DNA from: a virus
IMG/VR virus record: IMGVR_UViG_3300007708_000025
Coordinates: 1 to 25,221 of that record
Strand: one strand, 5' to 3'
Length of the DNA: 25,221 nt
A program made the translations under genes and the position numbers. Of the stretch, positions 573 through 12,751 are shown piece by piece. The notes beneath the pieces are model-generated. The model was not told the origin of the DNA. It searched no databases and saw only the letters and a list, made by a program, of their open reading frames with translations. Position 1 is the stretch's first letter, and each line of letters opens with the position of its first letter.

Positions 573-595
573 GTCCGCCTCTCGCCTAACTATTG

Positions 596-646: not shown

Positions 647-655
647 ACCCTGGTT

Positions 656-805: not shown

Positions 806-841
806 TTGTTGATCTCCTTTCAAGAGATATAGTTTGATTTA

Positions 842-870: not shown

Positions 871-898
871 TAGTTGCCGTAAGACATTTTTTCTGCCC

Positions 899-2116: not shown

Positions 2117-2325
2117 AGGAGAAATTCATCTCCTTCAATATAACCATAGTATTCATTGTATGATTGTTTTAAGGTATCAGGAGCAAATTGCATAAATCTA
2201 TATTCAGCATATGCTTCACCCTCATCTAAGTTAGATTGATTCCAATCTTCAAATAGTGCTTGCTCAATATCTACTTGAATTGCTCCAAGGATATGTTCTC
2301 CTACTGTATCTGTAAATGCTTCCAT
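2113..2325 (-). CDS. Hypothetical acidic protein (70 aa)
   Basis: The protein starts MEAFTDTVGEHILGAIQVDI and is acidic and aromatic-rich at the C-terminus (SYNEYYGYIEGDEFLL). It overlaps both neighbours: its ATG overlaps the stop of the YubB-like gene by 1 nt and its stop overlaps the next start by ATGA. No family recognised. Confidence 0.75.
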   Translation of the reverse strand: MEAFTDTVGEHILGAIQVDIEQALFEDWNQSNLDEGEAYAEYRFMQFAPDTLKQSYNEYYGYIEGDEFLL

Positions 2326-3056: not shown

Positions 3057-3083
3057 TTTATATCCTTTCGTTGATATGTTCCA

Positions 3084-3105
3084 ATTATAGACTAGACCAC
3101 TGACA
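3084..3105 (-). promoter_or_regulatory. TGTC-class promoter (copy 2)
   Basis: TGTCAGTGG (3097-3105), 7 bp, TATAAT (3084-3089). It drives the operon 3056 to 899. A TGTGAGTCACA palindrome (3124-3134) and an imperfect CRP-like box (3151-3166) lie upstream. Confidence 0.75.
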
Positions 3106-3150
3106 AATGGAATACCTTTTGGGTGTGAGTCACACCACATTTTGTATGCA

Positions 3151-3166
3151 TGTGGTCAAGATCACA
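3151..3166. promoter_or_regulatory. CRP/GlxR-like box (1 mismatch)
   Basis: TGTGG-N6-TCACA, centred 74.5 bp from the -10 edge of the 3084 promoter. It is the least well phased of the ten copies. It is followed by ATTCCAGGCGATTT, the motif that flanks several of the other boxes. Confidence 0.5.
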
Positions 3167-3236
3167 GAATTCCAGGCGATTTCATATTGACACCGTAAAA
3201 GAAATATATTACCCTTAGTCTTTTGCGGGCCATGCA

Positions 3237-3276
3237 AAAACCCCAGCTGTAGGGGCTTATTCCATAACTGGGGCTT
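3237..3276 (-). terminator. Rho-independent terminator
   Basis: CCCCAG (3241-3246) pairs with CTGGGG (3268-3273); in the minus direction the stem is followed by TTTTTGC. It closes the operon whose last gene ends at 3372. Confidence 0.65.
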
Positions 3277-3331
3277 TACATAGGCTGCTAGAGGTTCACC
3301 AACGAAAGTAAAAGAACTCTGCTTTATTTAA

Positions 3332-3357
3332 CCCCTGGCCATTAATGACTATAGGGG
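3332..3357 (-). terminator. Weak hairpin behind a stop codon
   Basis: CCCCT (3332-3336) pairs with AGGGG (3353-3357), about 15 nt after the stop codon at 3372, with only an AT-rich tail. It may protect the 3' end or act together with the stronger hairpin at 3237-3276. Confidence 0.4.
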
Positions 3358-3371
3358 CACCCTTAGATTAA

Positions 3372-3773
3372 TTATGCATTAACCCTTGAGTACTTATTAA
3401 TAAATGAATCCAATGTCATTGTGAACATGGGCTCGTCTTGCATTCCACGTACCTTATATTCTGTCGACTCGGACCAAGGCGCCTCTTCGTGCAGTGAAAA
3501 CGTTTGTGTATTCCAGTCAATCAAAGGAATCTTGTGCTCGTTGTCTAGGATGTTATTAACAGATAATCCCCATCCAGTTGTATCTTGCCACTGCTCTCCA
3601 ACTAAATGCGAAACCGCAATGCGGGTAGCATATGATTCATCTCCCCACCTAGAACGTGCTGCTTCAACAGCATCTGCTAAGCGCTCTAACATACCGTGTC
3701 CAGCCCAATGTCCGTATAGCACAATTGTTTCTCCATTGGATTGTTTAAATCCGAAGTTTGCTCTATCTCCCAT
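3372..3773 (-). CDS. Hypothetical GDRANFGF protein (133 aa)
   Basis: The protein begins MGDRANFGFKQSNGETIVLY and continues GHWAGHGMLERLADAV, a pattern I associate with uncharacterised conserved proteins of actinobacterial phages; it has no named domain. About 133 residues, soluble, with several Trp and His. Its ATG lies 1 nt beyond the stop codon of the DUF7455-type gene and GGCGGAAT in that gene acts as its ribosome binding site. Last gene of the operon starting at 4944. Confidence 0.8.
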   Translation of the reverse strand: MGDRANFGFKQSNGETIVLYGHWAGHGMLERLADAVEAARSRWGDESYATRIAVSHLVGEQWQDTTGWGLSVNNILDNEHKIPLIDWNTQTFSLHEEAPWSESTEYKVRGMQDEPMFTMTLDSFINKYSRVNA

Positions 3774-3774
3774 T

Positions 3775-3972
3775 TTATTCCGCCATTTCTACTAGTTGAG
3801 GTACTTCTTCTGTTTTGTTTAATTCTATCACTTCGTAAGCGATTTTGTCAAGACTAGGCTTGAATTTGTTAAAGTGGTGGCCGCAGAAAGCAAGCTCTCC
3901 ACTAACCATCTTAACAAGATACATTGCAGGTACTACTGAGTTACACTTATCGCATCCAACCCATTCGCTCAT
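3775..3972 (-). CDS. DUF7455-like zinc-binding protein (65 aa)
   Basis: C7-x2-C10 followed by SGELAFCGHHFNKFKPSLDKI gives the CxxC...CxxH arrangement of DUF7455 proteins, small zinc-binding proteins widespread in actinobacteria and their phages and of unknown function. The 65-residue length fits the family. It is translationally coupled to both neighbours (ATGA with the gene before, 1-nt gap to the next). It supports an actinobacterial host. Confidence 0.75.
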   Translation of the reverse strand: MSEWVGCDKCNSVVPAMYLVKMVSGELAFCGHHFNKFKPSLDKIAYEVIELNKTEEVPQLVEMAE

Positions 3973-4115
3973 ATTGTTCCGCCTTCAATCATGTCAGATA
4001 GTCGATCAAGAATCCATGTATCGATATCAGTGATATCAATCTCTGCTAGTTTTTCTATAATCTCTTCACGAGCAAATTTGTACCCGTCTTGAAATCCATC
4101 TTTATAGTCTGACAT
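3969..4115 (-). CDS. Hypothetical 48-aa protein
   Basis: The frame MSDYKDGFQDGYKFAREEII ends LSDMIEGGTI. The GYKFARE segment followed by an amphipathic acidic helix is typical of very small phage proteins. TAGGAG lies 7 nt before the ATG, and the stop overlaps the next start (ATGA). No family recognised. Confidence 0.7.
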   Translation of the reverse strand: MSDYKDGFQDGYKFAREEIIEKLAEIDITDIDTWILDRLSDMIEGGTI

Positions 4116-4123
4116 TATTTCTC

Positions 4124-4327
4124 CTAGTATCCTGTAACTTTACTATCGCTTACATAAGATTCGATTAAGTTATACTTATCACGAAGCCTACTTACTTTCT
4201 CAATACTACCAGTTCCGATGTTGAATGTCAATGCTGACATTGCTTCAGGGTCCAGTCCAGTTATCTCTGCATCCCAATAGGCCCTCTCCATAGAGAGCCT
4301 ATCGGGAGCGGTAAGTTCAAAATACAT
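4124..4327 (-). CDS. Hypothetical 67-aa protein
   Basis: This soluble protein of 67 residues begins MYFELTAPDRLSMERAYWDA. No Cys, no membrane helix, no recognised family. Its ATG overlaps the stop of the upstream gene (TAATG), so its translation is coupled to the 205/138-aa gene. Confidence 0.75.
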   Translation of the reverse strand: MYFELTAPDRLSMERAYWDAEITGLDPEAMSALTFNIGTGSIEKVSRLRDKYNLIESYVSDSKVTGY

Positions 4328-4743
4328 TAGCCCTCAATTCTATCTACAGATGATGATAGCCAACTAATACCGTCTGAGTCATAAGACACAGTGTCAAAAT
4401 CAATATCATGAATTAGATTGTGTGCACTCTCTTCATCACGAGCATTAACTGTAATTGAATATAGAACTGTTACTTCTAGTTCAAACTCATTTGTTAGTTC
4501 AAATCCACAGATGCCAGCAATTTCTTCTGCTTGAAATTCTGTAAGAGATTCGTCATCAAGGCCTTCGAGTGTGAATACCTTCATGTCATCACGCAATTTG
4601 CTTAGAGTTCCTGCAGTTGCATAATCACGCTGAGTTATACGCTGGATGTGCTCTTCTAACTGCGTAATGCGGGCTTTGTTATCTACTAACTGTGACTCAA
4701 GGAATTCTCGTGTCATGTAGTGATTATCTGTAGTTGTTTCCAT
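4327..4743 (-). CDS. Nested short form, coiled-coil protein (138 aa)
   Basis: An internal ATG at 4743 (METTTDNHYMTREF) has its own GAAGAGG ribosome binding site, the shared leader (CAACAACAACGG), a TGTC-class promoter (4772-4793) and a perfect CRP-like box (4822-4837). The product is acidic, with a predicted coiled coil (residues about 12-50) and a C-terminal beta-rich part ending WLSSSVDRIEG. All upstream signals match those of stand-alone genes here, so this is likely the main product, with the 205-aa form as a second product of the same frame. Confidence 0.75.
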   Translation of the reverse strand: METTTDNHYMTREFLESQLVDNKARITQLEEHIQRITQRDYATAGTLSKLRDDMKVFTLEGLDDESLTEFQAEEIAGICGFELTNEFELEVTVLYSITVNARDEESAHNLIHDIDFDTVSYDSDGISWLSSSVDRIEG

Positions 4744-4944
4744 TTTTACCTCTTCCGTTGTTGTTGGTGTAATTGTAGCATGCTCGACTGACAATAAGGT
4801 GGTCTTACGTCCGCAAGGGCATGTGAGTTCTGTCACACCTGAAGGAAAACCAAATCCATCAGATGATGTTAATTGAATTAAAGAATCGCATTCATCTGGG
4901 TCACAGACAAATGTATATACGCTTGATACTAGTTCGTTGGTCAT
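4327..4944 (-). CDS. Zinc-finger plus coiled-coil protein, long form (205 aa)
   Basis: From the ATG at 4944 the protein has an N-terminal module (residues 1-67) with CDPDEC and CPCG, which looks like a small zinc-binding domain, fused in frame to an acidic coiled-coil protein (from residue 68, METTTDNHYMTREF). The TGTC-class promoter at 4952-4973 puts +1 one base from this ATG, so the long message would be leaderless. No Shine-Dalgarno is present. A second promoter and ribosome binding site inside the frame give the short form described separately. The N-terminal part may have been an independent gene that lost its stop codon. Function unknown. Confidence 0.7.
   Translation of the reverse strand: MTNELVSSVYTFVCDPDECDSLIQLTSSDGFGFPSGVTELTCPCGRKTTLLSVEHATITPTTTEEVKMETTTDNHYMTREFLESQLVDNKARITQLEEHIQRITQRDYATAGTLSKLRDDMKVFTLEGLDDESLTEFQAEEIAGICGFELTNEFELEVTVLYSITVNARDEESAHNLIHDIDFDTVSYDSDGISWLSSSVDRIEG
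4772..4793 (-). promoter_or_regulatory. TGTC-class promoter (copy 3), inside a gene
   Basis: TGTCAGTCG (4785-4793), 7 bp including TGC, TACAAT (4772-4777). +1 near 4765, leader about 22 nt. It drives the nested 138-aa form. Confidence 0.75.
4822..4837. promoter_or_regulatory. CRP/GlxR-like box (perfect)
   Basis: TGTGA-GTTCTG-TCACA lies within coding sequence, centred 57.5 bp from the -10 edge of the internal promoter, the same spacing as boxes in intergenic regions. Confidence 0.7.
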
Positions 4945-4951
4945 GTAGAGA

Positions 4952-4973
4952 ATTATACAGGGTCCCACTGACA
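4952..4973 (-). promoter_or_regulatory. TGTC-class promoter (copy 4), leaderless output
   Basis: TGTCAGTGG (4965-4973), 7 bp, TATAAT (4952-4957). The expected +1 (about 4945) abuts the ATG at 4944. Confidence 0.75.
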
Positions 4974-5001
4974 TTTGTCTATAGATTCCAGGGACTTTTT
5001 A

Positions 5002-5017
5002 TGTGATCCGTAACACA
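5002..5017. promoter_or_regulatory. CRP/GlxR-like box (1 mismatch)
   Basis: TGTGA-TCCGTA-ACACA, centred 57.5 bp from the -10 edge of the 4952 promoter. One base differs from the palindrome. Confidence 0.5.
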
Positions 5018-5049
5018 AAATTTTGTCCCTAAGTACTGCGGGAATTTTG

Positions 5050-5123
5050 CGATCCATAACGGACTTGAACCGTCGGCCTCTACCGTGACAGGGTAGCGCT
5101 CTAACCAACTGAGCTAATGGACC
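5050..5123 (-). tRNA. tRNA-Asp (anticodon GTC)
   Basis: This 74-nt cloverleaf has an acceptor stem of 7 bp (one G-U), D stem GCTC/GAGC, anticodon stem CTACC/GGTAG with loop CTGTCAC (anticodon GTC), and T arm with TTCAAGT. The discriminator base is G, as expected for tRNA-Asp. CCA is not encoded. It lies between the DUF932 gene and the next operon, 12 nt behind a terminator-like hairpin, so it may be released from read-through transcripts. Proteins translated across it are artefacts. Confidence 0.93.
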
Positions 5124-5135
5124 TAGAAAAAATTG

Positions 5136-5158
5136 TGAGCAGTTTTTATTCATGCTCA
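5136..5158 (-). terminator. 3' hairpin, family copy 1 (terminator)
   Basis: TGAGCA/TGCTCA stem with an 11-nt loop, followed in the minus direction by CAATTTTTTC, directly behind the DUF932 stop codon. Two related hairpins with changed but still pairing stems are at 6647-6669 and 7173-7195. Confidence 0.65.
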
Positions 5159-5170
5159 GGAATTTATTTA

Positions 5171-6178
5171 TTAAAACGCAGAAATTAATTTCTTAATTTT
5201 ATTTTTTTCTGCGGTGAGAATTGGGTCAAACCCTGATGCACCAGCCATAAGTGTTTCAGAATTTCCGCGACCTGAACGATAGTAGTCAAGGCGTTCAGTT
5301 AGTGCATTGAATGCACCCCACTTAGTTCCCTTGATGTTAGCGTTAGTTGGTGAGTTGTGATAAAGATTGTCAAGAAGCACAACCTTATTCTCCCACTTAG
5401 TTAGCGCAACCTTAGCAGAATCTTTATCTGGCTTAGGATAAATTGTCTGAATCAACTTAGAAAATTCAGCATCAGTAATTGATTGAGAATAAAGAGCCTG
5501 AGCCTCTTTCTCAAATTCATCAAAGTATCCAAGAGCAAGACCAAGAGTCTCGCGGGCTACCTGAATGCGACCTTCAACAGATTGCGTGTGACGAATCTTG
5601 AAAGATTGCTTAGCATTCTTCATTGCTAGGTTTAGTGTATTTTGGCAAACTACACGAACAGGAGTAACCGCAGCCTGAACAGCAACAGACCCGTCATGAG
5701 ATGTCCATACGATTAGATATAACTTGGTTGCATCATTTGCGCCTTGTGGGTCAAGCACCATTGTGCGAGGAATATCCACAGTACCGAAAACAACCTTACC
5801 GCTACGAAGCGAGCCAGCAGATTCCCAACGGCAATCGGCATTGGCATCATGAATTGCATCAGCGAATGCAAACAATTCTTCATTCTGCACAGGCTTGTAA
5901 CGCTTACCAACAGTAGCAAGAACATCAGTTCCGCTATTGAATGGGTTGTCACGAATAACTAATTGAGCATTAGATACATCATTCCATGTATCTGAGATAT
6001 GGTCGGTCAATGGAGATAGACGGACATTCCAGTTAGATAGTTTTGCCTCATCTAACATCATTTGAGTAGTAACATCTTCATCTTGTGTGAAGATACGATT
6101 AGCAAGATTATGCCATGCAGGTGCGCCACGCAATGCAAAAGCAACTTCGCCGTTTTCAGTTTCTAGATTATGAGCCAT
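5171..6178 (-). CDS. DUF932 phage/plasmid-like protein (335 aa)
   Basis: This 335-residue protein has the typical start MAHNLETENGEVAFA, then RGAPAWHNLANR, and the downstream VVCQNTLNLAM segment of the DUF932 (TIGR03299) family. These proteins are common in phages and plasmids, often expressed early, and have been discussed as DNA- or replication-associated without an established activity. The start is supported by AAACGAAAGG 9 nt before the ATG. It forms a single-gene unit: TGTC-class promoter 6209-6230 with a perfect CRP-like box at 6269-6284, and terminator 5136-5158. By size and own promoter it is probably one of the most expressed leftward genes. Confidence 0.9.
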   Translation of the reverse strand: MAHNLETENGEVAFALRGAPAWHNLANRIFTQDEDVTTQMMLDEAKLSNWNVRLSPLTDHISDTWNDVSNAQLVIRDNPFNSGTDVLATVGKRYKPVQNEELFAFADAIHDANADCRWESAGSLRSGKVVFGTVDIPRTMVLDPQGANDATKLYLIVWTSHDGSVAVQAAVTPVRVVCQNTLNLAMKNAKQSFKIRHTQSVEGRIQVARETLGLALGYFDEFEKEAQALYSQSITDAEFSKLIQTIYPKPDKDSAKVALTKWENKVVLLDNLYHNSPTNANIKGTKWGAFNALTERLDYYRSGRGNSETLMAGASGFDPILTAEKNKIKKLISAF

Positions 6179-6208
6179 TATTTTTTACCTTTCGTTTGAT
6201 TAGTTGTA

Positions 6209-6230
6209 AGTATAACAGATGCCACTGACA
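6209..6230 (-). promoter_or_regulatory. TGTC-class promoter (copy 5)
   Basis: TGTCAGTGG (6222-6230), 7 bp including TGT, TATACT (6209-6214). A TAGACA hexamer at the normal -35 distance (17 bp) may also contribute. Confidence 0.75.
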
Positions 6231-6268
6231 TTGTCTAGGATTAGTTACTATATGTCCGAATTGATCCA

Positions 6269-6284
6269 TGTGATTAATCTCACA
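6269..6284. promoter_or_regulatory. CRP/GlxR-like box (perfect)
   Basis: TGTGA-TTAATC-TCACA, centred 67.5 bp from the -10 edge of the DUF932 promoter. It fits the GlxR consensus TGTGANNTANNTCACA at all arms, although the central TA is displaced. Followed by AATTCCTGGCG. Confidence 0.75.
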
Positions 6285-6300
6285 AAATTCCTGGCGTTTT

Positions 6301-6347
6301 CCACAGGCCCTCTTAAACCTGTGGATAACCCCGCACATTATTGCGGG
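6301..6347. other. DnaA-box and hairpin cluster
   Basis: CCACAGG/CCTGTGG inverted repeat (6301-6307, 6318-6324) runs into TGTGGATAA (6320-6328), the exact complement of the DnaA box TTATCCACA, and then a CCCGC/GCGGG hairpin (6330-6347). Nearly the same block recurs at 8091-8140. It could be a DnaA-binding element or part of a conserved operon-end module. Confidence 0.5.
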
Positions 6348-6359
6348 CCAAGCTTGGGC

Positions 6360-6379
6360 GGGGCAGAATTAGCTGCCCC
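6360..6379 (-). terminator. Strong hairpin at operon end
   Basis: GGGGCAG/CTGCCCC with a 6-nt loop, 6 nt behind the stop codon of the 75-aa gene. No T run follows, so efficiency is uncertain. Confidence 0.5.
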
Positions 6380-6384
6380 ACCTT

Positions 6385-6612
6385 TTACTTAGATAAGGAC
6401 TTTACGTAGTTTACTGTTTCCATTGGAAAGAACGCTGCTGATGTTTTCTTTTTATTTTTTTGATCATAAACAAAAGCCTTAACATTTCCATCAAATCTTT
6501 TTAAGTTTGAGAAAACTAATTCCTTTAGGCTCTCATTGTCATAGCCTTCTTCAGAATAAATTGTTAAATCGTTTTGCTTTACTTCATCATACATTTCTAT
6601 CTTGAATCGCAT
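6385..6612 (-). CDS. Hypothetical 75-aa protein
   Basis: MRFKIEMYDEVKQNDLTIYS and the following acidic and basic segments give a small soluble protein with a Lys-rich middle (DQKNKKKTSAAFF). AAAGG lies before the ATG at 6612. Immediately upstream in the leader is a UUCG-tetraloop hairpin (6636-6647), which may isolate its ribosome binding site from the preceding gene. No family recognised. Confidence 0.75.
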   Translation of the reverse strand: MRFKIEMYDEVKQNDLTIYSEEGYDNESLKELVFSNLKRFDGNVKAFVYDQKNKKKTSAAFFPMETVNYVKSLSK

Positions 6613-6635
6613 TGTATTGCCTTTGTTAGTAGTTG

Positions 6636-6669
6636 TCCCCGAAGGGAGAGCAGTTTGGCGACATACTCA
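6636..6669 (-). other. UUCG tetraloop hairpin and family 3' hairpin (copy 2)
   Basis: Behind the 140-aa gene the transcript can form a 23-nt hairpin (6647-6669; GAGTA with TGCTC using a G-U pair) followed immediately by TCCC-TTCG-GGGA (6636-6647), an exceptionally stable tetraloop. No T run follows, so these may be processing or stability elements rather than terminators. Confidence 0.5.
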
Positions 6670-6683
6670 GGTCGTTGGATTAT

Positions 6684-7106
6684 TTAGAGATAACGAGCAA
6701 TAGCGTTGTATGTGCTAGTGCTAACTGTTTCCTCATCTGTCATCTTGAGAATACGAATAGCGTTCTCAAGTTCCTCTTTCATCTCATTGTATGAGTGGCG
6801 GTGTAGAACTTCGTAGTCCTTCTCAGGCTCTTTAGGAAAGTCTGACTCATTAACTGTTAAATCAAAATCAACATTTAGAGTCTTGTTCCATGAGCGATAG
6901 TTTGTGCGGAAGTTTTCTGCCTTAGCAAAATTAGTCATAGCAAACTTTCCTACTTCTTTGCGCCACTTTTCCATAGCCTTTTCATGCTTTGCTTCGTTGG
7001 CTTCCTGTGATGCGTAGTCTGCTTGTAACTTTGTAAGACGAGTTTCTAGTGCCTTGATTACCTTTGGTGTTGCGATTTTAACTGAGATTGCTTTCTGTCG
7101 TGCCAT
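6684..7106 (-). CDS. Hypothetical coiled-coil protein (140 aa)
   Basis: The basic N-terminus MARQKAISVKIATPKVIKAL leads into a predicted coiled coil (residues about 14-60, rich in Lys/Glu/Ala) and a helical C-terminal part. No Cys. The start follows AACGAAAGAGAG in a typical leader, under the TGTC-class promoter 7138-7159, for which I see no CRP-like box. Family not recognised; a structural or nucleic-acid-binding role is possible but unsupported. Confidence 0.8.
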   Translation of the reverse strand: MARQKAISVKIATPKVIKALETRLTKLQADYASQEANEAKHEKAMEKWRKEVGKFAMTNFAKAENFRTNYRSWNKTLNVDFDLTVNESDFPKEPEKDYEVLHRHSYNEMKEELENAIRILKMTDEETVSTSTYNAIARYL

Positions 7107-7137
7107 TTATTTTCTCTCTTTCGTTGGTTGGTTGATT

Positions 7138-7159
7138 ATTATAGCAGATGCTACTGACA
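7138..7159 (-). promoter_or_regulatory. TGTC-class promoter (copy 6)
   Basis: TGTCAGTAG (7151-7159), 7 bp including TGC, TATAAT (7138-7143). No CRP-like box at the phased positions. Confidence 0.75.
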
Positions 7160-7172
7160 TTATTAAATTGTG

Positions 7173-7195
7173 TGAGTAGTTTTAAGACATACTCA
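7173..7195 (-). terminator. 3' hairpin, family copy 3
   Basis: TGAGTA/TACTCA stem, 11-nt loop, followed by CACAATTTAATAA. Compared with copy 1, one base pair has changed on both sides (C-G to T-A), which supports a functional RNA hairpin. It lies 41 nt behind the stop at 7236. Confidence 0.55.
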
Positions 7196-7235
7196 GGTCT
7201 TGGCTTAGCACCCTTTTATGGTGTGTGCCTCCGCT

Positions 7236-7418
7236 TTATGCGCCCGCTAAGGTGCTTGCTGATACTGTTGTCCAGCGAGTTTCCTTTGTTGGCATTTCTA
7301 ATAGCACACGCACCGAGCCAGATGCCTGTGGGTGGATTTCTTTAATCACACCTGTTTTCTTTGACTTTAGTGTGGTGAATAAATCGCCAACCTGATACAA
7401 CTTATCTTGTATTGTCAT
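7236..7418 (-). CDS. Hypothetical SH3-like small protein (60 aa)
   Basis: MTIQDKLYQVGDLFTTLKSK followed by TGVIKEI, VRVLLEMP and TRWTT looks like an alternation of short beta strands, compatible with an SH3-like barrel; this is a weak inference. GAAAAGAGG precedes the ATG. Single-gene unit with its own TGTC-class promoter (7447-7468) and a CRP-like box. Confidence 0.75.
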   Translation of the reverse strand: MTIQDKLYQVGDLFTTLKSKKTGVIKEIHPQASGSVRVLLEMPTKETRWTTVSASTLAGA

Positions 7419-7446
7419 TTATTGCCTCTTTTCTTTGTAGGGTAGT

Positions 7447-7468
7447 ATTGTAGCATTGGGGGCTGACA
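7447..7468 (-). promoter_or_regulatory. TGTC-class promoter (copy 7)
   Basis: TGTCAGCCC (7460-7468), 7 bp including TGC, TACAAT (7447-7452). Confidence 0.7.
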
Positions 7469-7506
7469 TTTATCAACCCCCATCTCATTATTTGAGAAAG
7501 TTATTG

Positions 7507-7522
7507 TGTGACCTTAGTCACT
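7507..7522. promoter_or_regulatory. CRP/GlxR-like box (1 mismatch), overlaps a stop codon
   Basis: TGTGA-CCTTAG-TCACT, centred 67.5 bp from the -10 edge of the 7447 promoter. It covers the stop codon of the 89-aa gene. Confidence 0.55.
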
Positions 7523-7783
7523 TTCAGGTAGCCAAAAGTGTAAGTGGTGAGCCTCGATGATCGCCCATACTGGCGCACATGTTTCACCCTTGTAAGAAAT
7601 ACCATCAGGCATTTCAATAGTTTCGTCCCACATTTCATCATAAGCAAAGTCTATTGCTTGAATACATACTGGCACCATAGAAAGTGGAACGGGTGGGTAA
7701 TGATTACCCTGTAAGTGATAGGCTAATTGTGTTTCTAAATCTAACACACTGTCCTGAATACCTAATGCTGTTACGCTTCCCAT
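7514..7783 (-). CDS. Hypothetical 89-aa phage protein
   Basis: LDLETQLAYHLQGNHYPPVP and the following SMVPVCIQAI are a pattern I associate with uncharacterised actinophage proteins. The C-terminus carries EAHHLHFW, a His cluster. Soluble and acidic. The ATG overlaps the stop of the preceding 67-aa gene (TAATG). Function unknown. Confidence 0.8.
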   Translation of the reverse strand: MGSVTALGIQDSVLDLETQLAYHLQGNHYPPVPLSMVPVCIQAIDFAYDEMWDETIEMPDGISYKGETCAPVWAIIEAHHLHFWLPESD

Positions 7784-7986
7784 TAGTTAGCCACCTTTAG
7801 AATTGCGTAAGTGCCATTTTCATTTATTTCATCAAGGATTGGTTGTAAGCGAGAGCCTACTAAATCCTTTAGCATACCTTCAAGCATTTCAATACGCATT
7901 GACTCATCAAGTGCCATTACCTGTGCAGTTACTGGGTGGCCTTCTGCAAACTCAGTTACAAACTTTAGGTTGTGTTCTATTTTCAT
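7783..7986 (-). CDS. Hypothetical 67-aa protein
   Basis: The product MKIEHNLKFVTEFAEGHPVT continues into an amphipathic helix (MRIEMLEGMLKDLVG) and a short beta-type end. The canonical leader CAACAACGAAAGG lies before its ATG. First gene of a two-gene operon under the 8015-8036 promoter and a perfect CRP-like box. Confidence 0.8.
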   Translation of the reverse strand: MKIEHNLKFVTEFAEGHPVTAQVMALDESMRIEMLEGMLKDLVGSRLQPILDEINENGTYAILKVAN

Positions 7987-8014
7987 TTATTGCCTTTCGT
8001 TGTTGGATAAGAGA

Positions 8015-8036
8015 ATTATAGCATAGGCCACCGACA
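8015..8036 (-). promoter_or_regulatory. TGTC-class promoter (copy 8)
   Basis: TGTCGGTGG (8028-8036), 7 bp including TGC, TATAAT (8015-8020). The best match to the class consensus. Confidence 0.8.
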
Positions 8037-8063
8037 TTACCTAATCCATTTGCCCATAAGCCT

Positions 8064-8079
8064 TGTGATAAATCTCACA
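8064..8079. promoter_or_regulatory. CRP/GlxR-like box (perfect)
   Basis: TGTGA-TAAATC-TCACA, centred 56.5 bp from the -10 edge. Identical in all 16 bases to the box at 9526-9541. Confidence 0.75.
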
Positions 8080-8093
8080 TAATTCCAGGGGGT

Positions 8094-8102
8094 TGTGGAT
8101 AA
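8094..8102 (+). promoter_or_regulatory. DnaA-box-like site
   Basis: TGTGGATAA is a perfect DnaA box on the opposite strand. A second, one-mismatch copy TGTGGAAAA is at 8115-8123. The arrangement parallels 6301-6347. Confidence 0.45.
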
Positions 8103-8119
8103 CTCCCTTAAACCTGTGG

Positions 8120-8160
8120 AAAACCCCGCAACATTGCGGGCCAGCTTGACATTGTCAAGC
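8120..8160 (-). terminator. Tandem terminator hairpins
   Basis: In the minus direction GCTTGAC/GTCAAGC (8144-8160) is followed by CCCGCA/TGCGGG (8125-8140) and then GTTTTCC. This closes the transcript ending with the 32-aa membrane peptide. Confidence 0.65.
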
Positions 8161-8170
8161 CGAAACGCTT

Positions 8171-8269
8171 TTATAAATTAGAAAAAATATAATAAACAAG
8201 AGCAAAAGGCAAGAGGGCCAATCCGATAGCAACTACTCCACCAAGTGCACCAATTAGATCATAGATCAT
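8171..8269 (-). CDS. Single-helix membrane peptide (32 aa)
   Basis: MIYDLIGALGGVVAIGLALL and the following PFALVYYIF form one long hydrophobic segment with almost no charged residues, so an inner-membrane peptide. AAGGG lies 5 nt before the ATG. It overlaps the preceding basic-peptide gene by 11 nt. No function can be assigned. Confidence 0.65.
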   Translation of the reverse strand: MIYDLIGALGGVVAIGLALLPFALVYYIFSNL

Positions 8270-8390
8270 TTTTACCCTTGTGTTTTATTTTACGTGTGTA
8301 TTTTTTTTTATTACGAACAGGTTGCGCCGCATTACTGCGGCGCAATTCCTGAATTCGTTTTACTTTATCTCGAAGTGAATTTTGGAACAT
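8259..8390 (-). CDS. Very basic 43-aa peptide
   Basis: The frame MFQNSLRDKVKRIQELRRSN continues with NKKKYTRKIKHKGKN; more than a third of the residues are Lys or Arg, suggesting nucleic-acid binding. It overlaps the gene before (by 26 nt) and after (11 nt). The ribosome binding site is weak. A perfect 9-bp inverted repeat (8322-8345) lies in the middle of the frame, so the region may also work as RNA structure; the gene call is moderate. Confidence 0.5.
   Translation of the reverse strand: MFQNSLRDKVKRIQELRRSNAAQPVRNKKKYTRKIKHKGKNDL
8322..8345. other. Perfect 9-bp inverted repeat, 6-nt loop
   Basis: TTGCGCCGC/GCGGCGCAA around ATTACT. Much more GC-rich than its surroundings and without an adjacent T run, so not a standard terminator. 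It sits inside the basic-peptide frame, behind the stop of the 63-aa gene. Confidence 0.6.
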
Positions 8391-8556
8391 TGTATCCACT
8401 CGCTTCGTGAAATCGTGTTACATCAAATCGCTCATTATCTTTTGCGAACATCTCCGCAAAATCATTTACCATTTTAGAAAATAAAGCAGGGTGCGTTTTA
8501 TCGCTTGCATACTTTAGAATTTCTGCGGTTGCTACATAGTCTTTACGAGTCATCAT
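8365..8556 (-). CDS. Hypothetical MTRKDYVATAEIL protein (63 aa)
   Basis: MTRKDYVATAEILKYASD and the later MVNDFAEMFAKDNERFDVTR resemble a small conserved protein seen in many environmental actinophages, with no assigned role. The start is one of two adjacent ATGs behind ACGAAAGG. It overlaps the preceding 68-aa gene by 4 nt. Confidence 0.8.
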   Translation of the reverse strand: MMTRKDYVATAEILKYASDKTHPALFSKMVNDFAEMFAKDNERFDVTRFHEASGYNVPKFTSR

Positions 8557-8759
8557 TTAATTACGACCTTTCGTCCTGCACGATAAAAAACTTTTGTGTG
8601 GCATTTGCCTGCTGGCGTGTATAGATTTACAGTTGAGTATTCATCTGCAAAACCCCAATCGGTAAATAAGAAAAAGTTTTCCCATGCCCCGTATTCGTTT
8701 TCGTATTCTGCTGACCAATGCGGAGCATTTCCGTCATAAGCGCAAGTTATTTTATACAT
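8553..8759 (-). CDS. Hypothetical 68-aa protein
   Basis: MYKITCAYDGNAPHWSAEYE is followed by a strongly aromatic part (GAWENFFLFTDWGFADEY) and a basic C-terminus (FYRAGRKVVIK). Probably a small beta-rich soluble protein. AACGAAAGGG leader, TGTC-class promoter at 8789-8810. Function unknown. Confidence 0.8.
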   Translation of the reverse strand: MYKITCAYDGNAPHWSAEYENEYGAWENFFLFTDWGFADEYSTVNLYTPAGKCHTKVFYRAGRKVVIK

Positions 8760-8788
8760 TAGTTTCCCTTTCGTTTGTTTGTTTGGTA

Positions 8789-8810
8789 ATTATAGCACCT
8801 GCCACCGACA
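8789..8810 (-). promoter_or_regulatory. TGTC-class promoter (copy 9)
   Basis: TGTCGGTGG (8802-8810), 7 bp including TGC, TATAAT (8789-8794). No CRP-like box upstream; the phased positions fall within the 47-aa gene. Confidence 0.75.
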
Positions 8811-8812
8811 AA

Positions 8813-8956
8813 TTATTCGGCTTCGGGGGTATAGAATAAGGCTCCCTCATTAAGTAGCCCAACCTCAATAGTAAATAGTTCATCTGGGGTGGCTTCGGAT
8901 AAATCTACCCAACCCGCCCCGTCTTGATCCATTCTAAAAATCTCAATGTATCCCAT
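8813..8956 (-). CDS. Hypothetical acidic peptide (47 aa)
   Basis: MGYIEIFRMDQDGAGWVDLS continues EATPDELFTIEVGLL and ends PEAE. Acidic, with WVDL; no metal-binding residues. GAGGAAC before the ATG; the ATG overlaps the preceding stop by 1 nt (TAATG). Confidence 0.7.
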   Translation of the reverse strand: MGYIEIFRMDQDGAGWVDLSEATPDELFTIEVGLLNEGALFYTPEAE

Positions 8957-9120
8957 TAGTGTTGTTCCTCGCAATCCTTATCGTAGTCAAATCCGCAAAA
9001 GTAGCAACCCATAAATTCTAGGTGTTCGATACAGTAATACTTAAATTGACTTTCATCACAACAAAAATGTTGCTCGTCTGCGATTTCATAGAAATCAGTT
9101 TTGTCGATTATGTTTAGCAT
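8956..9120 (-). CDS. Cys-rich zinc-type protein (54 aa)
   Basis: The 54-residue protein has HFCC, YYCIEH and CYFCG, seven Cys in all plus His, a likely zinc-binding arrangement. It starts at 9120 after AACGAAAGG. Unusually, its leader is preceded directly by a terminator-like hairpin with a run of seven T (9136-9185) and has no clear promoter, so it depends either on read-through from the 9211 gene or on an unseen promoter. Function unknown. Confidence 0.7.
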   Translation of the reverse strand: MLNIIDKTDFYEIADEQHFCCDESQFKYYCIEHLEFMGCYFCGFDYDKDCEEQH

Positions 9121-9135
9121 AGTTTTCCTTTCGTT

Positions 9136-9185
9136 AAAAAAATTGGTGAGAGTTCTTACTTACGACATTGGGCGAGAACACTCTC
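9136..9185 (-). terminator. Terminator or attenuator in a gene leader
   Basis: GAGAGT/ACTCTC (9148-9153, 9180-9185) with an inner TCT/AGA extension, then ACCAATTTTTTT in the minus direction, only a few bases before the ribosome binding site of the 54-aa gene. A TGTCG lies in the loop but no -10 follows it. Confidence 0.6.
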
Positions 9186-9210
9186 TAAACTGCCCCTGTT
9201 TCGATTTTAT

Positions 9211-9423
9211 TTAATCGGAAGTTTTTACCGCTAAATAGCGGTAAGTATCTTTTAGATTTAGTGGTGCAGAATAAATTGGGCGTACCTGCACTTTGTAAGT
9301 ATCTGCATTTGCATACCAGACACTATCATTTTTTTCTGCTGAGATAATTTCTCCAGTAATAGAATTTGAGCGATACATTTTCCCTACAAGTAGGCTTTCG
9401 ATTGTGTAGACATTTGCGGACAT
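9211..9423 (-). CDS. Hypothetical 70-aa protein
   Basis: The start is set at 9423 (MSANVYTIESLLVGKMYRSN) because AACAACGAAAGAAGG lies just before it; the longer frame to 9540 would cross the promoter. Beta-rich and soluble, with several Tyr. First gene behind the promoter at 9456-9477. Family unknown. Confidence 0.8.
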   Translation of the reverse strand: MSANVYTIESLLVGKMYRSNSITGEIISAEKNDSVWYANADTYKVQVRPIYSAPLNLKDTYRYLAVKTSD

Positions 9424-9455
9424 TAGTTGCCTTCTTTCGTTGTTGTTATAAGAGT

Positions 9456-9477
9456 ATTGTACCAGAACGCACCGACA
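9456..9477 (-). promoter_or_regulatory. TGTC-class promoter (copy 10)
   Basis: TGTCGGTGC (9469-9477), 7 bp including TGG, TACAAT (9456-9461). Confidence 0.7.
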
Positions 9478-9499
9478 TAATCTAATTACTAGCCAGTAA

Positions 9500-9637
9500 T
9501 TCCAAATAATGAGACGCTCAACCAATGTGATAAATCTCACAAATTTCAGGGGATTTTATAACGACTTCATAACGACACGCCCGACCCCGTGCATATGTGC
9601 GGGGCGCATCGCCTTTGTCAAGACGACACGCCGCTAT
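9500..9637. repeat. Operon-boundary module, copy A
   Basis: It holds GAGACGCTCA, the CRP-like box, TTTCAGGGGATTTTATAAC, CGACACGCC twice (9573-9581, 9624-9632) and the hairpin CCCCG/CGGGG (9585-9604). The same elements in the same order recur at 10458-10633, with a roughly 40-bp insertion there. No gene is seen in this stretch. Confidence 0.65.
9526..9541. promoter_or_regulatory. CRP/GlxR-like box (perfect)
   Basis: TGTGA-TAAATC-TCACA, centred 77.5 bp from the -10 edge, followed by AATTTCAGGGGATTTT. Confidence 0.75.
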
Positions 9638-9736
9638 CTATTGATAATCTTTTAGAATTTCTTCTAATTGATTTATTTGTTCATCGCTAAGATGATCTAA
9701 TTGAATTGCTTTTTCAAATCCGAATAAATCGCTCAT
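9638..9736 (-). CDS. Hypothetical 32-aa peptide
   Basis: MSDLFGFEKAIQLDHLSDEQ continues INQLEEILKDYQ: an acidic amphipathic helix. The ATG overlaps the TGA of the previous gene (ATGA). Supported by coupling only. Confidence 0.6.
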   Translation of the reverse strand: MSDLFGFEKAIQLDHLSDEQINQLEEILKDYQ

Positions 9737-9927
9737 TCGTTTTCCATTTCTGCCAAATAATCTTCATGCTCTGCTAAACCAATTGCAAATGCTATTGGGT
9801 CACAACATTCTAAAATTTCGGCGGGGGTAAAAGTAGAGTATCCAATCTTTACACTAGGATAAACATCATTAAGTAAATCTATAAAGCTTTCTTTTGTTTC
9901 TATGTCTTTTTCTAATTGTGATTTCAT
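9733..9927 (-). CDS. Hypothetical 64-aa protein
   Basis: MKSQLEKDIETKESFIDLLN is a helical N-terminus, followed by ILECCDPIAFAIGLAEHED. Acidic, soluble, with one Cys pair. Preceded by GAGGAGG inside the gene before and overlapping it by 1 nt (TAATG). No family recognised. Confidence 0.75.
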   Translation of the reverse strand: MKSQLEKDIETKESFIDLLNDVYPSVKIGYSTFTPAEILECCDPIAFAIGLAEHEDYLAEMENE

Positions 9928-10058
9928 TAGTTAGCCTCCTCTAAAAATAAAGCGTACATTGGTGAACATGTTAAGCAAATCGGATACTCAAAACGGAAAT
10001 CGAAAAAATCATCTTCCATGTTTACTGAGCATTCCTCGCAATAAGTTAAATCTTTCAT
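9927..10058 (-). CDS. Two-CxxC zinc-ribbon peptide (43 aa)
   Basis: CEEC at residues 7-10 and CLTC at 28-31 frame a short acidic aromatic linker: a minimal zinc ribbon. GGAGG lies 8 nt before the ATG at 10058. One of at least six Cys-pair mini-proteins in the window. Partner unknown. Confidence 0.7.
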   Translation of the reverse strand: MKDLTYCEECSVNMEDDFFDFRFEYPICLTCSPMYALFLEEAN

Positions 10059-10060
10059 TG

Positions 10061-10198
10061 TTAAGCCTCCAATTGCTTATAGTCGATTACATGAAAGTCT
10101 AATTGTCTCTCAAGGGGCATAGCCTTTAGCCATGAGTAGGCAGACTCAAAATCATCTGCCTCTACATCTACAAATAACTCAAAATTAAAAATAGCCAT
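10061..10198 (-). CDS. Hypothetical 45-aa protein
   Basis: The start is placed at 10198 (MAIFNFELFVDVEADDFESA) behind GAGGAG in the preceding gene; the longer frame is not supported. An alternating beta pattern, then DDFESAYSWLKAMPLERQ suggests a small alpha/beta fold. It is 2 nt from the next gene. Function unknown. Confidence 0.7.
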   Translation of the reverse strand: MAIFNFELFVDVEADDFESAYSWLKAMPLERQLDFHVIDYKQLEA

Positions 10199-10199
10199 G

Positions 10200-10379
10200 T
10201 TACCAACACTCCTCACATGTAAATTTGGTAAAGTCTGCATCTTTTGCAAAAATCTCTAAATAGTTATTTGCACAAATTGTGCAAGCAAGTAAATAAGTAT
10301 TTGCCTTGCGGTACATGTAAGGCTGAGCAATAGACAAGGCTCTATTCTCCAAAACCTCTGAGGCTATTAGTATGGTCAA
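10200..10379 (-). CDS. Zinc-type protein, TTG start (59 aa)
   Basis: The frame has no ATG behind the canonical leader; TTG at 10379 lies 9 nt after AACAACGAAAGG and is the likely start (MTILIASEVLENRAL). CTIC in the middle and CEEC at the extreme C-terminus form a zinc-binding pair. First gene of a five-gene operon under the 10412-10433 promoter. Confidence 0.7.
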   Translation of the reverse strand: MTILIASEVLENRALSIAQPYMYRKANTYLLACTICANNYLEIFAKDADFTKFTCEECW

Positions 10380-10411
10380 GGTATGACCCCTTTCGTTGTT
10401 GTTATAGTGGA

Positions 10412-10433
10412 ATTGTAGCATGGGGGTACGACA
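10412..10433 (-). promoter_or_regulatory. TGTC-class promoter (copy 11)
   Basis: TGTCGTACC (10425-10433), 7 bp including TGC, TACAAT (10412-10417). Confidence 0.65.
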
Positions 10434-10457
10434 TTTCTCTACCTACTAGCGAGTAAG

Positions 10458-10633
10458 TCCAAGATGTGAGACGCTCAGCCTATGTGATACTAGTCACACG
10501 CAAATGTCCGATTTGTCCGTCAAATCGACACGCCGTAGAATTTCAGGGGATTTTATAACATGTTCATAACGACACGCCCGACCCCGTGCTTTTGCGGGCC
10601 AGCTTGACTATGTCAAGCCGACACGCCGTAGCG
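10458..10633. repeat. Operon-boundary module, copy B
   Basis: It repeats copy A (GAGACGCTCA, CRP-like box, TTTCAGGGGATTTTATAAC, CGACACGCC three times) with a roughly 40-bp insertion containing TGTCCGATTTGTCCG. Two hairpins lie at the right end: CCCG/CGGG (10583-10598) and GCTTGAC/GTCAAGC (10602-10618). They probably terminate the operon ending at 10634. No gene. Confidence 0.65.
10483..10498. promoter_or_regulatory. CRP/GlxR-like box (perfect)
   Basis: TGTGA-TACTAG-TCACA, centred 78.5 bp from the -10 edge of the 10412 promoter. Confidence 0.75.
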
Positions 10634-10756
10634 CTAGTGTGATTCTTGCCACAATTCACGCATCTCTGCCATGAAATCATGATAGACGATCCTCGCCATG
10701 TATAGGGCGGGGATAGCGATAGATAGTTGCACTAGTGTAGTTAGTAAGCGATTCAT
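10634..10756 (-). CDS. Small membrane peptide (40 aa)
   Basis: MNRLLTTLVQLSIAIPALYM forms one N-terminal hydrophobic helix after a single Arg; the rest (ARIVYHDFMAEMRELWQESH) is charged. Coupled to the upstream membrane protein by ATGA. Function unknown. Confidence 0.7.
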   Translation of the reverse strand: MNRLLTTLVQLSIAIPALYMARIVYHDFMAEMRELWQESH

Positions 10757-10944
10757 TTAGTCATCCAATCATCATCATTGTTAAAGCCGATAGGGGCTAC
10801 TTGCTTATTACTCTTTATCTTATTGTATACCTTAGCACCGACAAGAATAACGGCGGTCAAGATAATAAAAGCCCATGATAGCGATACATAGAGAAAGTCC
10901 CCTAGGTCAATCATTAAGCCGTAGTCATTTAGTTCGATAGTCAT
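10753..10944 (-). CDS. Single-helix membrane protein (63 aa)
   Basis: About residues 17-40 (LYVSLSWAFIILTAVILVGA) are a clear transmembrane helix, with a Lys-rich region after it (KVYNKIKSNKQ), so the C-terminus is probably cytoplasmic. Overlaps the next gene by ATGA. Together with its neighbour it may form a small membrane complex; not recognised. Confidence 0.75.
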   Translation of the reverse strand: MTIELNDYGLMIDLGDFLYVSLSWAFIILTAVILVGAKVYNKIKSNKQVAPIGFNNDDDWMTK

Positions 10945-11108
10945 GCGGTCACCTTGATGTCCATTACATTAGCGGTAAACTTTTTACCCTTGCCTAATTC
11001 GCTATTGTTTAGCGATTGTATTAAGTGGTCAATAGCATTTACATCATGAGCAATGTTATCGATTGAGATTAGTTTAGAGCCTTGCCAAATTGAGTATTTG
11101 ATAGTCAT
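10941..11108 (-). CDS. Hypothetical 55-aa protein
   Basis: The ATG at 11108 is preferred over one at 11123 because GGGAG lies 8 nt ahead of it. The product MTIKYSIWQGSKLISIDNIA looks like a short alpha/beta protein. Its stop overlaps the start of the membrane protein gene. Confidence 0.7.
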   Translation of the reverse strand: MTIKYSIWQGSKLISIDNIAHDVNAIDHLIQSLNNSELGKGKKFTANVMDIKVTA

Positions 11109-11110
11109 TA

Positions 11111-11290
11111 TTAGTTCTCCCATGTTAGTGCGAATAGTTGTGCTAGTTGTTCAGAATCTTCATCATAGAATTCATCTAGTGGAGGTTGTTCCTCATCTAC
11201 CTCATCAAGGTAAGTGTATTGGTCTGCGACATCCTCTTGGATAGTATCCCACTTAGACACGCTATTAGTTTGGTATGAGTATGCGTACAT
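11111..11290 (-). CDS. Acidic hypothetical protein (59 aa)
   Basis: MYAYSYQTNSVSKWDTIQED leads to a strongly acidic middle (YLDEVDEEQPPLDEFYDEDS). AACGAAAGAGG precedes it and its ATG overlaps the stop of the 30-aa gene by 1 nt. No family recognised. Confidence 0.7.
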   Translation of the reverse strand: MYAYSYQTNSVSKWDTIQEDVADQYTYLDEVDEEQPPLDEFYDEDSEQLAQLFALTWEN

Positions 11291-11382
11291 TATTTAACCT
11301 CTTTCGTTAGTACGGATAGGGCTTGTGCAAGGCTTTCCTTGCGTTGCGCCTCAATAAGCGCCTTGTATTCTTCTAGAGTCAT
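11290..11382 (-). CDS. Hypothetical 30-aa peptide
   Basis: MTLEEYKALIEAQRKESLAQ continues ALSVLTKEVK: one amphipathic helix. First gene behind the 11413-11434 promoter, with AACAACGAAAGG 7 nt before the ATG, which makes translation likely despite its size. Confidence 0.65.
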   Translation of the reverse strand: MTLEEYKALIEAQRKESLAQALSVLTKEVK

Positions 11383-11412
11383 GTTACGACCTTTCGTTGT
11401 TGTTATGTTGTA

Positions 11413-11434
11413 AGTGTAGCGTATAGAGCAGACA
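11413..11434 (-). promoter_or_regulatory. TGTC-class promoter (copy 12)
   Basis: TGTCTGCTC (11426-11434), 7 bp, TACACT (11413-11418). The most divergent copy, yet with unchanged spacing. Confidence 0.6.
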
Positions 11435-11461
11435 AATTGGGGAGGTTGCTAGGGTGTGTCG

Positions 11462-11477
11462 TGTGATTTACCTCACA
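11462..11477. promoter_or_regulatory. CRP/GlxR-like box (perfect), overlaps a stop codon
   Basis: TGTGA-TTTACC-TCACA, centred 56.5 bp from the -10 edge. The stop codon of the 50-aa gene lies inside it. Confidence 0.75.
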
Positions 11478-11620
11478 CAACAAGCGCAATAGGTAGGGAG
11501 AGAGAATAAGTGCTTAAGTAGCGCCTTACGCTCAGCAGTAGTCAATTCGGGGTGATTAGATTTCACGCCCCCGTGTTGGTATTCATAGACGATTGAGTCT
11601 AGTGTGTTTTGAGTGAGCAT
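11468..11620 (-). CDS. Hypothetical 50-aa protein
   Basis: MLTQNTLDSIVYEYQHGGVK, then TTAERKALLKHLFSLP and a C-terminal CACCVR. AACAAACGAAAGGGG lies before the ATG. It is the first leftward gene next to the divergent region, single-gene unit. The last codons lie inside the CRP-like box of the next promoter, so its C-terminus and that operator have evolved together. Confidence 0.7.
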   Translation of the reverse strand: MLTQNTLDSIVYEYQHGGVKSNHPELTTAERKALLKHLFSLPTYCACCVR

Positions 11621-11653
11621 TTATTTGCCCCTTTCGTTTGTTGTTATACCTTA

Positions 11654-11675
11654 AGCATAGCATGGGGGACCGACA
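11654..11675 (-). promoter_or_regulatory. TGTC-class promoter (copy 13)
   Basis: TGTCGGTCC (11667-11675), 7 bp including TGC, TATGCT (11654-11659). Confidence 0.65.
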
Positions 11676-11713
11676 TTTATGCCCGTTTCTCGGGCGTGTC
11701 GTCAAAAAACTTT

Positions 11714-11729
11714 TGTGAGGTCAATCACA
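11714..11729. promoter_or_regulatory. CRP/GlxR-like box (perfect)
   Basis: TGTGA-GGTCAA-TCACA, centred 67.5 bp from the -10 edge, as at the DUF932 gene. It is about 190 bp from the rightward gene start, so it could in principle act on both directions. Confidence 0.7.
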
Positions 11730-12737: not shown

Positions 12738-12751
12738 CAATGGAGTTATAT

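Follow-up and report, generated by a model that had tools for sequence, protein, structure and literature searches.

The window analysed here, a 25,221-base stretch with 38% G+C from the IMG/VR virus record IMGVR_UViG_3300007708_000025, contains a leftward arm of small genes (297..11729, minus strand) in which a palindrome, TGTGA-N6-TCACA (hereafter the box), recurs upstream of most promoters. Measured from the end of the −10 element, the centres of most boxes are found at 47, 57, 67 or 78 bp, i.e., in steps of about one turn of the DNA helix. Our preferred reading, to which we assign a probability of about 0.65, is that a host protein of the CRP/GlxR type (CRP, the cyclic AMP (cAMP) receptor protein) binds these boxes and activates the arm promoters in the manner of class I CRP promoters. 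This signature of CRP, a nutrient-sensing regulator of bacteria, faces the promoter mostly from one side of the helix, an arrangement suggesting that control of the first phage genes is left to a regulator of the host.

Boxes and Promoters in the Window

Seven perfect boxes are present in the window, against a mean of 0.07 in dinucleotide shuffles, none of 100 of which reaches seven. The original prediction, made from the letters of the window, had listed all seven exactly as found (4822, 6269, 8064, 9526, 10483, 11462 and 11714), together with a chance expectation of 0.02–0.03, which the shuffles show to be slightly low. Five one-mismatch boxes were found, including the three listed previously (3151, 5002 and 7507) and two that had been missed (3124–3139 and 10638–10653). 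When up to two mismatches are allowed, there is no excess in the window (20 boxes vs. 14.8 expected, a number reached by 11 of 100 shuffles).

The promoters that follow the boxes have the core TGTCRG-N10-TAYAMT or one near it, and a relaxed form of this motif detects 15 leftward promoters in the window and none on the plus strand. A box with at most one mismatch stands upstream of 10 of the 15, at 47–79 bp, all distances being counted between the centre of the box and the final T of the −10 element. All ten cores are on the minus strand. The shortest distance among the perfect boxes, 56.5 bp, is shared by 8064..8079 and 11462..11477, which precede the cores TGTCGG-N10-TATAAT (8015..8036) and TGTCTG-N10-TACACT (11413..11434), respectively. 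At 57.5 bp are found the perfect box 4822..4837, measured from the last T at 4772 of the core TGTCAG-N10-TACAAT (4772..4793), and the one-mismatch box 5002..5017, which precedes TGTCAG-N10-TATAAT (4952..4973). Three boxes are centred at 67.5 bp, i.e., the perfect boxes 6269..6284, upstream of the −10 of the DUF932 gene (TGTCAG-N10-TATACT, 6209..6230), and 11714..11729 (TGTCGG-N10-TATGCT, 11654..11675), and the one-mismatch box 7507..7522 (TGTCAG-N10-TACAAT, 7447..7468). The perfect boxes 9526..9541 and 10483..10498 lie one step further out, at 77.5 bp from the core TGTCGG-N10-TACAAT (9456..9477) and at 78.5 bp from TGTCGT-N10-TACAAT (10412..10433). The tenth promoter, TGTCAG-N10-TATAAT (3084..3105), is shared by two one-mismatch boxes, namely the out-of-phase outlier of the original prediction at 74.5 bp (3151..3166) and the newly found box at 47.5 bp, which is in phase (3124..3139). 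The ten distances given previously were all reproduced. The other newly found one-mismatch box (10638..10653) lies inside an open reading frame (ORF; 10634–10756) and is unpaired with a promoter of the TGTCRG class.

Counted from the final base of the −10 at 4952..4973, a start codon (4944; window 4944–4957) begins 8 bases away, and the transcript from this promoter is possibly leaderless.

Conservation of the Boxes in Relatives

The DUF932 gene (5171..6178, minus strand; Pfam PF06067, 2.8e-56) served as the marker for fetching relatives, and three sets of 80 loci were collected via DUF932 proteins with no box required. The query of set A was the DUF932 protein of the window itself (L125–L204, best 80 of 255 relatives), that of set B was the DUF932 protein of locus L017, 50% identical to the window's (L234–L313, best 80 of 391), and that of set C was the one of locus L036, 65% identical to the window's (L314–L393, best 80 of 162). 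The queries of sets B and C were taken from loci of a box-plus-promoter pattern scan (L005–L124, at least 120 stretches). A perfect box is present in 80/80, 79/80 and 80/80 loci of sets A, B and C, respectively, i.e., in 239 of 240 in total. The perfect boxes number 485, 356 and 367 (1208 altogether), compared with 0, 3 and 1 (4 altogether) for the reversed pattern, and when the flanks are included, 212, 246 and 278 of them are distinct. No exact 120-mer is shared between sets A and B or between B and C; 148 of the 6400 A–C locus pairs share one, so these two sets are not fully independent. Likewise, each of 26 long phage records (14 from the box-plus-promoter scan, 12 from the DUF932 gene scan) has 3–10 perfect boxes, vs. 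none of the reversed pattern in all 26.

The DUF932 promoter was located in all 80 loci of set A, and a box with at most one mismatch stands at 67.5 bp from it in every one of them (72 + 8, in two groups). Across 24 dereplicated DUF932 promoters, identity to the majority is 1.000 and 0.992 for the two box arms, 0.79 for the N6 between them and 0.81 for the spacer; the conservation of the core promoter is not evidence, because the core was selected for. The length of the central gap is equally restricted, since TGTGA-Nk-TCACA in the set A loci gives 212 distinct sequences at k = 6 and 0–9 at each of 14 other values of k.

Promoters with the TGTCRG core lie on the gene strand vs. the other strand in the ratios 924/0, 318/20 and 773/0 in sets A, B and C, and 368 of 485, 59 of 356 and 206 of 367 perfect boxes, respectively, fall within 40–110 bp of such a promoter. 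The arm layout of the window is also seen in two long relatives, G001 (117 kb) and G003 (115 kb), each of which has 13 TGTCRG-core promoters on one strand within approximately 11 kb and none elsewhere. Their perfect boxes (7 and 8, respectively) lie in or just beside this stretch, with a few one-mismatch boxes elsewhere.

Two further motifs were observed near boxes. DnaA-box-like TTATCCACA sites occur at 6320–6328 and 8094–8102 of the window and in the relatives at 27320–31515 (G001) and 15755–19794 (G003), where 7/7 and 6/7 of the exact ones, respectively, lie in the arm; several of all these sites form pairs 21 bp apart. The motif CCCTGGAAT is found on the minus strand of the window at 173, 4985 and 8082, a few bases from a box in two of the three cases, and a similar motif directly adjoins the DUF932 box in relatives.

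Helical Phasing of the Boxes

Set A comprises 142 promoter clusters, of which 63 have a perfect box within 20–200 bp, and the best period of the distances is 10.4 bp with R = 0.76 (72 cluster distances between 40 and 110 bp). Set C gives the same best period with R = 0.72 (n = 97). A first distance histogram had been drawn from pattern-fetched loci, and the selection artefact to which such loci are open was avoided by repeating the phase tests on the DUF932-fetched loci. An artefact of relatedness was countered by letting each downstream gene family of sets A and C contribute a single value, which yields R = 0.754, a level that none of 20,000 random sets attained; this test uses the 66 of 243 families that have a perfect box, with promoters lacking an ORF of 25 amino acids dropped. 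The clusters and families are simple ungapped groupings, the promoter core is imposed by the search pattern, and promoters near the end of a locus (120–200 bases upstream, 60–400 downstream) were dropped before counting. When boxes with up to two mismatches are considered, 340 of 538 distinct set A promoters have one at a phased offset, vs. 13 of 538 at half-turn offsets.

The register of the box can differ between orthologous promoters of one gene, where boxes are found at 56.5/57.5, 67.5/68.5 and 77.5/78.5 bp. More than one register is shown by 16 of the 66 families, and of 21 register steps 8 are 9–11 bp, 4 are 19–23 bp and 9 take other values (4–7, 25, 28 and 32 bp). Whole turns are, therefore, the largest group rather than the rule.

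Core Promoter Types

A logo of 162 cluster representatives from set A reads WWWTGTCAG, N7, TGn (T 0.63, G 0.80) and a TATAAT-like hexamer; of these elements, TGTCRG and TAYAMT come from the search pattern itself, unlike WWW and TG. The −35 of these promoters is poor, and the WWWTGTCAG element starts at about −31. As a side observation, the full core, WWWTGTCAG-N7-TGnTATAAT (window 1629–11675, minus strand), is found in only one arm of the two long records and calls to mind activator boxes situated near −30. The mean match to the −35 hexamer, out of six positions, is 3.48 for promoters with a box (n = 64) vs. 2.45 for those without (n = 49), with a background of 2.46. The idea that an activator compensates for a poor −35 is unsupported, since it is the box promoters that have the better one.

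Many set B boxes stand in front of promoters of an ordinary type, TTGACA/TTGTAA-N17-TANNNT. Of 123 box clusters, 100 have a strong promoter on the gene side and 18 have one on the other side, at a promoter threshold of 7.2 that we set ourselves; no promoter passes it on the gene side in 23 of the 123, and in 2 of the 100 the distance exceeds 110 bp. The distances gather at 46.5, 57.5, 67.5 and 76.5–78.5 bp, and with TTGACA-type promoters R is 0.53 at 10.4 bp, the best of six periods tried being 10 bp (n = 98, a number inflated because many of the 46.5 clusters look homologous). The set B boxes stand before TTGACA-type promoters in the same phase, and hence the box is not tied to one core type.

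Five promoter-motif matches of the window, all on the minus strand, are not associated with a box. Three promoters of the TGTCRG class have none (8789..8810, 7138..7159 and 1629..1650), another has no box within 47–79 bp (2366..2387), and the fifth match (10822..10843) lies inside an ORF (10753–10944), also without a box, and is possibly due to chance.

Boxes in Other Phages

A scan for the box together with an exact TTGACA and TANNNT returned at least 120 stretches, which constitute a sample. Among the matches listed, 114 are distinct, in 110 new loci; 28 are family-like, i.e., have a tblastn match at 1e-6 to the 21 window proteins (in stretches of 1.5–14 kb) or at least three boxes at low G+C, and 86 are not. 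Of these 86 listed non-family matches, 28 have the box at 46.5 bp and 4 at 47.5 bp, whereas the remainder are scattered and include lesser groups at 56.5 and 68.5 bp. A gene for WhiB, an actinobacterial marker according to the available part of PMC6802176, is present in 23 of 32 records chosen from the non-family contigs. The occurrence of the same box in WhiB-bearing contigs unlike the window proteins fits a shared host factor.

The palindrome is also present in phages infecting Nanopelagicales, without clear promoter geometry. Two phages of 'Ca. Planktophila', LanE43-AprE7 and LanE43-AprF5 (OX376640 and OX376641; PMC10202952), have two perfect boxes each, vs. 0.06 and 0.12 expected.

Candidate Regulator and Proposed Mechanism

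In the preferred reading, the boxes are candidate sites of a dimeric CRP/GlxR-type regulator supplied by the actinobacterial host. A dimer bound upstream at a whole number of turns would share a face of the DNA with RNA polymerase and could touch the enzyme, probably through the flexible C-terminal domain of the alpha subunit as in class I CRP, and this contact would raise initiation at the phage arm promoters. The upstream whole-turn positions speak for activation through polymerase contact, and we hold activation as the sign of regulation with moderate confidence. We infer the host origin of the protein, its membership of the CRP family, cAMP as its ligand, activation as its effect and early expression of the arm, which is plausible.

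E. coli class I CRP sites are centred at −61.5, −71.5/−72.5 and −82.5. When the last T of the −10 is counted as −7, the box centres fall at approximately −54, −64.5, −74.5 and −85. The class I likeness drawn in the original prediction holds in outline, in the whole-turn upstream geometry with the same step, whereas the register would be roughly 2–3 bp off the E. coli positions; this shift may be explained by the actinobacterial polymerase or by start-site positions. The consensus of the boxes equals the E. coli CRP consensus, TGTGA-N6-TCACA, in the available part of PMC4117774, which calls the M. tuberculosis CRP motif similar and, of the strongest sites of that protein, places one at −62.5 and others within genes and far upstream.

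A CRP homologue encoded elsewhere by the phage, which the original prediction had allowed for, is unsupported. The cNMP-binding (CRP) domain PF00027 was found in none of 69 phage records (26 + 43, many of them fragments whose completeness is not established), and HTH_Crp_2 (PF13545) reached its cut-off in none of 26; sub-threshold HTH_Crp_2 matches in 5 of the 26 (12–13 bits, in frames of 50–51 amino acids) were not accepted. A class III adenylate cyclase was found in none of 29 phage records. On the host side, the term 'Crp' does not appear in the available part of the acI genome paper (PMC5301498), and a literature text search returned no paper joining Planktophila with a Crp transcriptional regulator. 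The proposed CRP-type regulon thus retains the conserved, phased palindrome of the relatives and its occurrence in WhiB-bearing phages, and loses the phage-encoded homologue.

Several observations weigh against regulation of the arm by a host activator of this kind. Besides the shifted register, set B is less orderly than the others, as only 59 of its 356 perfect boxes are near a TGTCRG core, and with this core alone the phasing is less sharp (R = 0.47 at 10.4 bp, best period 9.6 bp, n = 33). Phased boxes with up to two mismatches are missing from 198 of the 538 set A arm promoters, and 9 of the 21 register steps are off one or two turns, vs. 12 that are on. A recurrent class at 62.5 bp, mostly from one module, is half a turn off; in five examples from sets B and C it is accompanied by a one-mismatch box at 78.5 bp. 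Orthologues of the 3084–3105 promoter (gene at 3056) keep the out-of-phase box at 74.5/75.5 bp in most of 63 loci (37 + 22 counts), and an in-phase one-mismatch box at 47.5 bp occurs in 38 counts. The previously described steps of about one helical turn accordingly hold in the relatives, with the 62.5 and 74.5/75.5 classes and the unsharp set B as exceptions. The better −35 of the box promoters relative to the box-less ones is the opposite of what simple activator dependence predicts. In the Planktophila phages, only one of the four perfect boxes faces an above-threshold promoter at a phased distance (67.5 bp). Finally, the original prediction had named absence of the boxes from related phages as evidence that would speak against it. 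They are present in 239 of 240 fetched loci; in the examined stretches of the cultured Streptomyces relatives Samisti12 (22.2 kb) and Wofford (40.2 kb), however, there is no perfect box, and a single one-mismatch box (L206:175) lies outside the arm.

Among the other explanations, the least improbable, which we nevertheless consider unlikely, is that the palindrome is bound by the arm's own regulator, a DNA-binding protein encoded by the phage in which no CRP domain can be recognised. A scan of 33 arm ORFs gave Pfam matches for no more than 6 of them, and of 15 PHROG matches a single one carries a function (Lsr2-like DNA bridging, 8.5e-07). A phage regulator may have been missed, because the family scan of the long relative G001 with Pfam and PHROGs covered 87 of its 145 ORFs and gave the first 25 of 42 and 85 families. 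The failure to find the cNMP-binding domain in the 69 records and the confinement of HTH_Crp_2 to below-cut-off matches in 5 of 26 argue against such a protein, as does the fact that WhiB contigs without a match to the 21 window proteins share the box, with at least 28 of 86 at 46.5 bp.

Somewhat less probable still is that a CRP-type protein of the host does bind the boxes and mainly represses or tunes the arm, e.g., in starved cells with high cAMP. Phage T1 offers a precedent, with cAMP-CRP acting at pir, dam and recE (PMC6737242, in the part available), and the fair −35 and often extended −10 of the box promoters mean that they may not need an activator. The boxes, however, lie upstream of the core and mostly in whole-turn steps, a geometry of polymerase contact rather than of steric block.

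It is improbable that the palindrome is read by a host regulator outside the CRP/FNR family. The register unlike that of E. coli CRP would agree with such a regulator, and the host is known no closer than through an actinobacterial marker; the preference for T at position 5 and A at position 10 and the A-rich flanks agree, by contrast, with the CRP consensus. Chance or a non-transcriptional repeat (for replication or packaging) is the least credible explanation: DnaA-box-like TTATCCACA sites near several boxes would suit a repeat, whereas the box excess, the association with promoters on one strand and the phase disfavour both, and chance is ruled out by the excess in the window (7 vs. 0.07) and in 26/26 long records.

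Comparison with Known Systems

At class I CRP promoters, the upstream sites are spaced in whole helical turns. The arm promoters share with class I CRP/GlxR promoters (E. coli CRP, C. glutamicum GlxR and M. tuberculosis CRP) the same TGTGA-N6-TCACA palindrome, as far as the available parts of the sources go, and differ from them in forming a phage arm array and apparently in the register, roughly 2–3 bp off that of E. coli. In T4 middle promoters, the MotA box lies near −30. The set A promoters may work in a similar manner, having a weak −35, an element at about −31 and a partly extended −10, whereas the sequence differs. That a host CRP acts on phage promoters is already known from phage T1, in which, according to the available part of PMC6737242, host cAMP-CRP acts on pir, dam and recE, with repression in E. 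coli, in a lysis–lysogeny switch. In contrast to T1, ten box-bearing promoters are found here in one window, and boxes in several phage lineages. The literature searched, which covered few subscription papers, yielded no phage arm with a phased array of CRP-type sites as a shared upstream element across divergent lineages.

It is possible, though we regard it as a tentative and rather doubtful proposition, that a guild of freshwater actinophages of several distinct genome types has converged on wiring its first-expressed genes to a host nutrient sensor of the cAMP-receptor type, the speed of infection thereby following how well supplied with energy these abundant lake bacteria are. If the preferred reading is true, widespread uncultured phages would leave the launch of their programme to a metabolic regulator of the host via an array of sites with a helical grammar, and infection would be linked to the nutrition of hosts that are difficult to cultivate. 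The arm would then supply hundreds of natural promoters on which CRP-type contacts with actinobacterial RNA polymerase can be tested, and a first functional handle on a promoter class seen in one arm only (in the two long records examined).

Phage Family, Host Group and Neighbouring Features

The DUF932 protein of the window matches 609 phage records, all at less than 60% identity (best approximately 51% over 99%), and Streptomyces BE-cluster phages are among these deposited relatives. On the features compared, the window appears to be a fragment of a phage related to the BE cluster (Stanwilliamsviridae); DUF932, ribonucleotide reductase and arm layout, the features that the comparison comprised, agree. 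The Streptomyces phages share DUF932 (~50%) and a similar arm layout with the window, from which Samisti12 and Wofford differ by having no perfect box in the examined stretches, and the gene layout of Samisti12 and Wofford resembles that of the window. In the Samisti12 record, bases 1–10,665 are identical to the right end, and the DUF932 gene and its neighbours lie inside this terminal repeat; direct terminal repeats of 10–12 kb are reported for the BE cluster in the available part of PMC8612146. The long relatives of the window measure about 115 kb.

WhiB genes are present in relatives of the window, in 19 of 26 records and in 11 of 11 records, which points to an actinobacterial host phylum. 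The hosts of the box-bearing uncultured phages are probably freshwater actinobacteria, freshwater being an origin that we infer. One 110 kb contig of the same phage family (L205, CAINGU010000031.1), with boxes and promoters, is placed in a metagenome-assembled genome labelled as a cyanobacterium, and was not used as host evidence because it is probably misbinned. Outside this contig, that genome has 8 boxes in approximately 5.3 Mb, compared with 5 matches of the control pattern in the whole of it. Two reading frames considered as portal and capsid genes (L210:3986–5581 and L210:8305–9228) were rejected, as they gave only a short match to cyanophage structural proteins and nothing, respectively.

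The arm, which fills the window from about 300 to 11,700 with small leftward genes, holds every perfect and one-mismatch box and all promoters of the TGTCRG class in the window, as well as a tRNA-Asp(gtc) gene (5049–5123, minus strand). To the right of the arm, genes run in both directions and include a ribonucleotide reductase (PHROG 3e-184), rightward tail-fibre-like genes and a tRNA-Ile(tat) gene (12663–12738, plus strand).

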